From positions 124,001 to 188,000 of the forward strand of contig NZ_JIAU01000006.1 in NCBI RefSeq assembly GCF_000620665.1: a stretch of DNA of 64,000 nt, read 5' to 3'. A program made the position numbers and the translations under genes. A model generated the notes under the pieces. That model had not been told where the DNA came from. It searched no databases and saw only the letters and a program-made list of their open reading frames with translations. Positions 2,309-5,389 of this stretch are shown one piece after another (positions within the stretch are counted from its first letter, which is position 1; every line of letters starts with the position of its first letter). Origin of the DNA: Sphingomonas sp. URHD0057 (GTDB lineage Bacteria; Pseudomonadota; Alphaproteobacteria; Sphingomonadales; Sphingomonadaceae).

Positions 2309-5300
2309 ATGCTGACCCATATTTCTGTCAGAGGTGCCCGCGAGCACAACCTCAAGGGGATCGACGTCGATATCCCGCGCGAGAGCCTGACGGTCATCAC
2401 CGGCCTGTCGGGCTCGGGCAAGTCGTCCCTCGCCTTCGACACCATCTATGCGGAGGGGCAGCGGCGCTACGTCGAGAGCCTCAGCGCCTATGCGCGCCAG
2501 TTCCTCGAGATGATGCAGAAGCCCGACGTCGAACATATCGACGGCCTCTCGCCCGCCATCTCGATCGAGCAGAAGACCACGTCGCGCAACCCGCGCTCGA
2601 CGGTCGCCACCGTCACCGAGATCTACGATTACATGCGCTTGCTGTGGGCGCGCGTCGGCGTCCCTTACTCGCCCGCGACCGGGCTGCCGATCGAGGCGCA
2701 GCAGGTCAGCCAGATGGTCGACCGCGTGATGGCGCTGCCCGAAGGCAGCCGCCACTACCTGCTCGCCCCCGTCGTGCGCGGCCGCAAGGGCGAGTACCGC
2801 AAGGAGCTCGCCGAGTGGCAGAAGGCGGGCTTCCAGCGAGTCCGCATCGACGGCGTCTTCTATGCGATCGAGGAAGCCCCCGCGCTCGACAAGAAATACA
2901 AACATGACATCGAGGTGGTGGTCGACCGCATCGTCGTCCGCGAAGGGATCGAAGCCCGCCTCGCCGACAGCTTCGAGCAGGCGCTCAAGCTCGCCGAGGG
3001 GCTTGCCTACCTGGACCCCGCAGACGCGCCAACTCCCTCCCCCTCGATGGGGGAGGGTCGGGGTCGGGGTGGGGGTGACGGTGGAGACAGCCGCGCCTTT
3101 TCCGGAGACGTCACCCCGCCCCCAACCCCTCCCCATCAAGGGGAGGGGAGCCAGTTCAAGCTCGACTACGCACCCCCCGGCCGCATCCTCTTCTCGGAGA
3201 AATTCGCCTGCCCGGTCTCGGGCTTCACCATCGCCGAGATCGAGCCGCGCCTGTTCAGCTTCAACGCCCCGCAGGGCGCCTGCCCGGCGTGCGACGGCCT
3301 CGGCGAGAAGCTGGTGTTCGACGAAGATCTCGTCGTCCCCAACCACAACCTCTCGATCGCCAAGGGCGCGGTCGTCCCCTGGGCCAAGTCGCAGCCGCCC
3401 AGCCCTTATTACATGCAGGTGCTCAGCTCACTCGCCCGCGCCTATGATTTCGATCTCCATGTGCCGTGGAAGGACCTCCCCGAGGAAGCGCAGCGCGTGA
3501 TCCTCCACGGCACCGCCGGCCGCCCGGTCACCCTCCGCTTCATCGACGGCCGCCGCAGCTACGAGGTCAACAAGCCGTTCGAGGGCGTCATCGGCAATTT
3601 GAACCGCCGCATGCTGTCGACCGAGAGCGCGTGGACTCGCGAGGAGCTGTCGCGCTACCAGGGCAGCCGCCCGTGCGAGGTGTGTCACGGCGCCCGCCTC
3701 CGCCCCGAGGCGCTGGCGGTGAAGATCGCGGGCGAGGACATCTCGCTCTCCAGCCGCCGCAGCGTCGCCGACGCGCTCGCCTGGTTCGCCGCGCTCCACA
3801 CCAAGCTCACCGAGACCCAGAACGCGATCGCCGGGGTGATCCTCAAGGAGATCAACGAGCGTCTCGGCTTCCTCCACAATGTCGGCCTCGACTATCTCCA
3901 CCTCGACCGCACCAGCGGCACCCTCTCGGGCGGCGAGAGCCAGCGCATTCGCCTCGCCAGCCAGATCGGCAGCGGCCTGTCGGGCGTCCTCTATGTCCTC
4001 GACGAGCCCTCGATCGGCCTCCACCAGAAGGACAACGACCGCCTCCTCGAGACCCTCAAGCGCCTGCGCGGCCTCGGCAACACCGTGCTGGTGGTCGAGC
4101 ATGACGAGGAGGCGATCCGCACCGCCGACCATGTCATCGACATGGGCCCGGGCGCCGGCGTCCACGGCGGCGAGATCGTGTGCGAAGGCTCGCTTGCCGA
4201 CCTCCTCGCGTGCGAAGGCAGCCTCACCGCGGACTACCTCTCCGGCCGCCGCGAGATCCCGCTCCTCGCCACCCGCCGCAAGGGCAGCGGAAAATTCGTC
4301 ACGGTCCACGGCGCCACCGCCAACAACCTCGACAACGTCACCGTCAAGTTCCCGCTCGGCACGTTCACCTGCGTCACCGGGGTCAGCGGCAGCGGCAAGT
4401 CGAGCCTGACCATCGACACGCTCTACGCCGGCGCCGCCCGCGCGCTTAACGGCGCCCGCATCGTCTGCGGCCCGTGCGAGCGCATCACCGGCCTCGAGCA
4501 ACTCGACAAGGTGATCGACATCGACCAGTCGCCGATCGGCCGCACGCCCCGCTCCAACCCCGCGACCTACACCGGCGCCTTCACCCAGATCCGCGACTGG
4601 TTCGCCGGCCTGCCCGAGAGCAAGGCGCGCGGCTACAAGCCCGGCCGCTTCTCCTTCAACGTCAAGGGCGGGCGGTGCGAGGCGTGCCAGGGCGACGGCC
4701 TGATCAAGATCGAGATGCACTTCCTGCCCGACGTCTACGTCACCTGCGACGTGTGCCACGGCGCGCGCTACAACCGCGAGACGCTCGAGGTGAAGTTCAA
4801 GGGCCACTCGATCGCCGACGTGCTCGACATGAACGTCGAGGAGGCGGCCGAGCTGTTCAAGGCGGTCCCCGCAATCCGCGACAAGATGCGCATGCTGCAG
4901 GAGGTGGGCTTAGGCTACATCAAGGTCGGCCAGTCCGCGACCACGCTCAGCGGCGGCGAGGCGCAGCGCGTCAAGCTCTCCAAGGAGCTGTCGCGCAGAG
5001 CCACCGGCAACACCCTCTACATCCTCGACGAGCCGACCACCGGCCTCCACTTCGAGGACGTCCGCAAGCTCCTCGAAGTGCTCCACGCGCTGGTCGAGCA
5101 GGGCAACACCGTGGTCGTGATCGAGCACAACCTCGACGTCATCAAAACCGCCGACTGGGTGATCGACCTCGGCCCCGGCGGCGGAGTCAACGGCGGCAAG
5201 ATCATCGCCGAAGGCCCGCCCGAGAAAATCGCGGAAACCGCGGTCTCGGCGACGGGGCAGTATCTGCGGCCGATTCTGGAGCGGGCGAGCGTCAAGCCGA

Positions 5301-5389
5301 AGGTGGTGGAGACGAAGCCGGTGCGGGTGAAGCGCTCGCGCAGGGTTGCGGTCGACGAGAACGAACCGGACTTGATTCCGGCGAAGTAG
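2309..5389 (+). CDS. uvrA: Excinuclease ABC subunit UvrA with an in-frame repeat insertion
   Basis: UvrA is the damage-recognition ATPase of nucleotide excision repair and loads UvrB on damaged DNA. The first ATP site has Walker [10 protein letters not shown] (near residue 32), signature [14 protein letters not shown] and Walker [13 protein letters not shown]. The second has [14 protein letters not shown] (about 690), [14 protein letters not shown] and [12 protein letters not shown]. Zinc motifs include CPACDGLG and CEACQGDG...CDVCHGAR. At 1026 aa it is longer than the usual 940-980. The excess is a Gly/Pro-rich stretch at about residues 241-281, encoded by a palindromic repeat and lying just before the conserved [15 protein letters not shown] Lys/Arg-rich C-terminal tail follows the second ATPase. 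An SOS box precedes the gene. Confidence 0.98.
3033..3150. repeat. Intragenic palindromic repeat element inside uvrA
   Basis: Two arms, 3033-3080 and 3109-3150, are imperfect inverted copies of each other. Each arm contains its own small hairpin, CCTCCCC-(n)-GGGGAGG, followed by a G-rich tract ending GGTGACG; 28 bases separate the arms. The unit is read in frame as about 41 residues rich in Pro and Gly (for example [15 protein letters not shown]), with no stop codon. The layout resembles mobile palindromic elements that insert in frame into genes, such as the Rickettsia palindromic elements. No other copy is visible in this window. Confidence 0.8.

Follow-up and report, generated by a model that had tools for sequence, protein, structure and literature searches.

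An in-frame palindromic insert in uvrA of Sphingomonas sp. URHD0057 resembles the joined ends of a DUF559-nuclease element

How does a long palindrome come to lie, in frame, within a housekeeping gene, and from where does it derive? Palindromic elements in frame within protein genes have been described in Rickettsia (RPEs; PMC10969869). The same question is raised by uvrA of Sphingomonas sp. URHD0057, which was analyzed here within a 64-kb stretch of the genome (the window). The gene (2309..5389, + strand) encodes a protein of 1026 a.a., as judged from its open reading frame and its match to UvrA structures such as 2R6F, and uvrA matches are present in all 61 genomes searched. The palindromic element spans 118 bp (3033..3150) and is defined by its inverted arms, its folding, and its further genomic copies. 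The left (3033-3071) and right (3112-3150) arms, each of 39 nt, are 82% complementary and are separated by 40 nt. A regular-expression hairpin scan located a 23-nt hairpin in each arm, CCCTCCCCCTCGATGGGGGAGGG on the left (3035..3057) and CCCCTCCCCATCAAGGGGAGGGG on the right (3126..3148), and found none of the same type elsewhere in the 64-kb window. The folding energy of the element is -81.2 kcal/mol, compared with -64.0 (sd 4.5) for shuffled sequences (z -3.85), and none of 200 shuffles folded as low. Likewise, its stem score is 18, while the maximum among same-length windows of the same gene is 11 (100 and, separately, 60 windows). The two inverted arms, each with its own hairpin, that the first-pass annotation had recognized in uvrA are thus borne out. 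An Rfam search of the window returned two tRNAs only.

The uvrA frame is open through the element, which adds approximately 40 residues (about residues 242-281), as had been proposed. These residues follow the UvrB-binding domain and precede the first zinc module, and the 14-residue segment that the first-pass annotation had placed just behind the loop begins at residue 292; the alignment to Geobacillus UvrA (2R6F) breaks at residue 255, with zero residues in between. In a predicted model of UvrA, which is of moderate quality overall (mean pLDDT 73), residues 241-287 have a pLDDT below 50 and no secondary structure, and are flanked by strands at 232-237 and 293-296. The position of the insert at a domain boundary, suggested earlier from the sequence, agrees with this predicted unstructured junction. 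The loop of the window measures 56 residues, vs. 23-37 residues in 26 of 28 other same-genus loci by the same measure; the two exceptions are L035 (51 residues, with a palindrome) and L036 (58 residues, without one). The first-pass annotation had held that relatives with an equally long loop but no arms would speak against an insertion. Such loops do occur, as L036, L104, L106, L110, and L135 have 40-60 residues with neither a significant stem nor an insert motif, but most of the other same-genus loci have the shorter loops given above. A simple kind of assembly artefact is an unlikely source of the insert, since the genomic copies of the element differ in sequence and occupy unrelated places.

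The proposed search of the remaining genome (G000; 2.79 Mb, 11 contigs) for the element yielded three further full copies at 78-87% identity, for a total of four, as well as half copies. Two of these other full copies are also in frame, one in the gene for RNase R (an 819-a.a. frame with an RNB domain) and one in a 314-a.a. ORF without a Pfam match; as read from the sequence, the frames of uvrA, RNase R, and this ORF all remain open through the element. The remaining copy coincides with the 3' end of an ORF, the stop codon of which falls inside the first hairpin; a first guess that this ORF encodes RarA had no Pfam support. The element therefore recurs within its genome, in keeping with the RPE-like, mobile-type behavior that had been ascribed to it. 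A conserved encoded peptide was rejected, as the copies are read in different frames and every full copy leaves three to four of its six frames open (three of six are stop-free in the uvrA copy). No clear target-site duplication was visible by eye at the relatives' empty RNase R site or in the uvrA loop, but the flanks have diverged. Among the 61 genomes, the element was detected in six (E-value <= 1e-6).

The half copies point to a source for the element. Two of them (C4:378474-378515 and C4:378875-378911) are in inverted orientation and flank a single DUF559 gene, and a second DUF559 gene of this genome, on C6, is flanked by a related hairpin pair; both DUF559 matches of G000 thus lie within inverted hairpins. 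When the uvrA copy is aligned to the C4 element, positions 3034..3095 match its left end (56 bp, at G000:C4:378474; scoring 77 by local alignment, with a gap of 7 nt), and positions 3092..3147 match its right end (55 bp, up to G000:C4:378911; score 58, with small gaps). The uvrA copy is therefore covered by two adjoining pieces of the element's ends, including inner bases beyond the hairpins. Two features of MITE/REPIN-type elements were found here: several dispersed copies (four full ones plus half copies), and ends held in common with a gene-bearing element of the same genome. Because its two alignments are to opposite ends of a larger element (56 bp on the left, 55 bp on the right), the insert looks like an internal-deletion (MITE/REPIN-like) derivative of the DUF559 element. 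This resemblance to both ends had escaped the first-pass annotation. A best-match comparison covered ten genomes with a G-rich uvrA palindrome (the window's included) and 25 of their 33 DUF559 matches. The best match of the uvrA insert came from its own genome in 7 of the 10 (expected 1.0; probability 5e-6, with kinship ignored), and in 6 of 9 (8e-5) after removal of the window, whose region was known beforehand to match; the exceptions are L113, L117, and L118.

DUF559 genes in these bacteria commonly lie between palindromes. Of 59 listed matches, 51 were examined and seven with missing flanks or partial domains were set aside; among the 44 remaining full-domain loci, flanking inverted repeats scored at least 16 in 32 and at least 13 in 39, compared with 0 and 15, respectively, of 3000 random segments. 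A second set, from named sphingomonads (26 uncut of 30 loci), gave scores of at least 16 in 22 and at least 13 in 23. Control segments from the loci themselves reached 13 in 1 of 276 cases for the Sphingomonadales. Phylum-wide, 13 of 30 DUF559 loci scored at least 16 and 16 scored at least 13, while the remaining 14 fell below 13 (own-locus controls at or above 13, 0/180). The relative G020 carries four dispersed DUF559 elements that are approximately 92-97% identical (C1 675745, 916146, 1441840, and 2590977; L234-L237), a sign, at the level of sequence comparison, of recent movement.

According to structure prediction, DUF559 is a nuclease with a Vsr/homing-endonuclease fold. The partner protein matches PF04480 and has a conserved D..ExD core, and residues D52, E63, D65, and H69 are invariant across 36 aligned proteins. 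The structures matched by its predicted model (pLDDT 85) are 3HRL and, from the homing endonuclease I-Bth0305I, the catalytic domain (3r3p, E-value 2.7e-5), with Vsr (1cw0, E-value 0.017) as a weaker match.

The distribution of DUF559 across genomes was also compared with that of the palindromes. All six element-bearing genomes have a DUF559 match, vs. 29 of 61 overall (p = 0.009, with kinship ignored); in three of the 29 positive genomes (G002, G041, and G049), the only match is a weak, partial one within a protein of ~1800-2100 residues. A second (group-2) palindrome type occurs in 20 of the 61 genomes, of which 17 have DUF559, as opposed to 12 of the 41 others (p = 8e-5, kinship again ignored); a reversed control pattern occurs in none of the 61. 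Hairpins of the other DUF559-associated type (GGGGAGGGGGACC..GGTGGAGGGG) were seen at five places in G000 (C3:7322, 330159, and 490429; C4:196364; C9:57025), although the two DUF559 genes of this genome have best-scoring flanking repeats of a different type. As a predictor of the uvrA insert, DUF559 presence failed: among 50 named genomes, 45 have DUF559, and because these include 25 of the 30 without an insert as well as all 20 with one, its presence alone does not discriminate.

Taken together, the insert is probably a non-autonomous, REPIN/MITE-like palindrome derived from the two ends of a small DUF559-nuclease mobile element, which landed in uvrA at a domain turn and is tolerated in an unstructured loop. 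A copy would have entered at the turn that links the UvrB-binding domain to the zinc module. The DUF559 nuclease, acting in trans, could recognize either the hairpins or the empty target and cut, and repair of the break could then copy the element, or a shortened derivative of it, into the site. The insert would be retained because its length keeps the frame, three of six frames are stop-free, and its residues are predicted to form an unstructured loop, and UvrA would presumably stay active.

The main alternative is that the nuclease is a passenger: the palindromes would spread by other means (replication slippage, template switching, or other enzymes), and DUF559 or GIY-YIG genes would land in them, as homing endonuclease genes do in safe sites. 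We regard this as unlikely, though worth serious consideration. GIY-YIG is a homing endonuclease family, and the predicted fold of DUF559 is homing endonuclease-like. In addition, three of the 20 genomes with group-2 palindromes lack a DUF559 match. On the other hand, the uvrA copy looks like joined element ends that retain some inner, non-hairpin sequence, and the type of palindrome goes with the type of nuclease. The latter follows from a comparison with GIY-YIG genes of the standalone kind. At these genes in the 61 genomes (26 uncut of 30 loci), flanking repeats scored at least 13 in 21 and at least 16 in 18, compared with 2/156 and 0/156 in controls; class-wide (23 uncut of 30 loci), the numbers were 13 and 11, and controls reached neither threshold (0/138). 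The GIY-YIG palindromes are mainly of two types, one CGTC-tagged and one with a GTTCGTCC...TCGAAG-like core; inverted palindromes of either type often flank the individual loci (L200-L229 and L359-L388). CGTC hairpins on both flanks were found at 11 of 26 GIY-YIG loci in relatives and at 4 of 23 class-wide, but at none of 75 DUF559 loci and in no controls (0/156 and 0/138). Conversely, a G-rich AGGG core is present on both flanks of 39 of 45 DUF559 loci vs. 1 of 26 standalone GIY-YIG loci. This pairing by type speaks against a passenger role.

Insertion at this site of UvrA is recurrent. A loop scan on both strands recovered 108 UvrA loops among 110 loci (L127 and L129 were missed and were covered by another scan), and 19 of the 108 have a significant stem, one that outscores every one of 60 windows of equal length taken from the gene concerned. 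One of these, L063, is doubtful and was not counted as an insert, because its loop is of ordinary length and scores 8 under narrower limits. The loop inserts belong to at least three families: G-rich (the DUF559 type), TCGAAG, and CGTC/AAGGCGGG, of which the latter two resemble the palindromes flanking GIY-YIG genes. With the calls made by sequence motif only (L078, L084, L095, and L117, whose stems are not significant), 23 of 96 full-length UvrA proteins carry an insert; the 80 named uvrA loci were the top scorers among at least 597, so this frequency does not come from a random sample. Outside the Sphingomonadales, the uvrA gene of Devosia equisanguinis (L127) has a significant G-rich palindrome in the same loop.

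In a quick-method tree of 96 of the 110 UvrA proteins, built with the loop excluded, the four labels require 20 changes, and the starred branches make no fewer than 17 switches between presence and absence of an insert unavoidable. Shuffling leaves the insert label about as scattered as it is observed to be (19 changes observed vs. a mean of 20.8 when shuffled). Because a change on the tree can reflect loss as well as gain, the insertion count is only estimated; nevertheless, different families adjoin on the tree, which argues for many separate insertion events. Among the same 96 proteins, with L063 as the reference and C-terminal differences set aside, internal insertions of at least 8 residues occur in this loop only, bar one 8-residue case (L091). 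By these sequence comparisons, palindromes of several families have landed repeatedly in the UvrA loop, a hotspot that the first-pass annotation had overlooked.

A further alternative is that the insert was selected because it changes UvrA activity, for instance through a mutator effect, as has been speculated in print for REP-tagged repair genes. Many REP-tagged proteins work in DNA synthesis and repair (PMC3733652), and insertion does recur at a single site. Selection for altered UvrA activity is nevertheless very improbable. The loop is occupied by unrelated sequences and is predicted to be unstructured, most of the 108 loops have no significant stem, and RNase R is struck likewise. Of 19 RNase R loops (20 loci), three contain an in-frame palindrome (G000, G004, and G012; L254-L256), with stems of 14, 15, and 23, respectively, against 4-9 in the remaining 16 loops (an informal comparison), and the three palindromes differ in sequence. 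A second in-frame insert was noticed in another loop of the G012 RNase R. According to the DUF559-element reading, insertions into housekeeping genes would survive only where frame and fold permit, and for this reason would pile up in one disordered UvrA loop. Finally, the element could be a REP that depends on a RAYT (HUH tyrosine) transposase for movement, as REPs of Pseudomonas and enterobacteria do. The general architecture of inverted hairpin pairs is shared with RAYT systems (PMC3733652), but this reading is extremely improbable, since no PF01797 match was found in G000, only 9 of the 61 genomes have one, and flanking inverted repeats were found at 0 of 6 testable RAYT-like loci, all from relatives.

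More broadly, there may be two palindrome superfamilies, each with its own non-HUH mobility nuclease: DUF559 (Vsr/EDxHD homing-type) for the G-rich palindromes and standalone GIY-YIG for the CGTC- and TCGAAG-type. Both would spread REPIN-like derivatives by homing-like cut-and-repair and would repeatedly recolonize tolerant loops such as those of UvrA and RNase R. We consider the odds of this wider proposal to be about even.

The element can be placed among several known systems. Like RPEs, it is a palindromic repeat of similar size found in frame in protein genes (PMC10969869); however, it is a G-rich double hairpin paired with DUF559, and while a conserved encoded peptide is attributed to RPEs, the frame in which its arms are read varies from gene to gene. 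REP/REPIN elements with RAYTs (GTAG repeats) also consist of inverted hairpin pairs, with a gene embedded between the same hairpins and gene-less copies elsewhere, but the embedded gene here is a DUF559 nuclease rather than an HUH tyrosine transposase, and a direct reading of 3033-3150 reveals no GTAG tag. CGTC-tagged REPs are found mostly in alphaproteobacteria, also inside genes, and apparently lack a dedicated transposase (Di Nocera, 2013; PMC3733652); REPs located within uvrA are reported there for Thioalkalivibrio and O. terrae. By eye, this tag is present in some of the class C inserts of other uvrA loops (L078, L107, and L115). In contrast, the window element is not a CGTC-tagged hairpin: a window scan for hairpins in which CGTC (or TGTC/CCTC) precedes a stem of 8-9 bp with A as its first base and a loop of 4-5 nt found none in the element, whose right half has the letters CGTC but no such stem. 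Moreover, the CGTC hairpins in the present genomes flank standalone GIY-YIG genes. I-Bth0305I and Vsr resemble the DUF559 model in their predicted fold, but the DUF559 gene is embedded in hairpins and has no known intron or recognition site.

Because in-frame palindromes (in Rickettsia) and REPs in uvrA are already in print, the uvrA insert adds a case to a phenomenon already described; what sets it apart is the nuclease pairing and the multi-family hotspot. A pairing of DUF559 or GIY-YIG with palindromes was not found in the available text of open-licence PMC papers. The pairing provides named, testable candidates for the mover of CGTC-type repeats, a question left open in print (in the available text of PMC3733652), and by extension of other RAYT-less repeats. 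In addition, approximately twenty apparently independent natural insertions in the UvrA loop, and several in RNase R, offer material on how mobile DNA becomes protein. For the DUF559 family, whose function is unknown, the pairing also hints at a role. In DUF559 proteins themselves, the palindromes can be part of the coding sequence: at L141, L176, and L306, the DUF559 frame enters the downstream palindrome, which encodes the end of the protein (e.g., HPHPTLPHQGGG), and such palindrome-encoded ends occur in many of the 59 listed DUF559 proteins.
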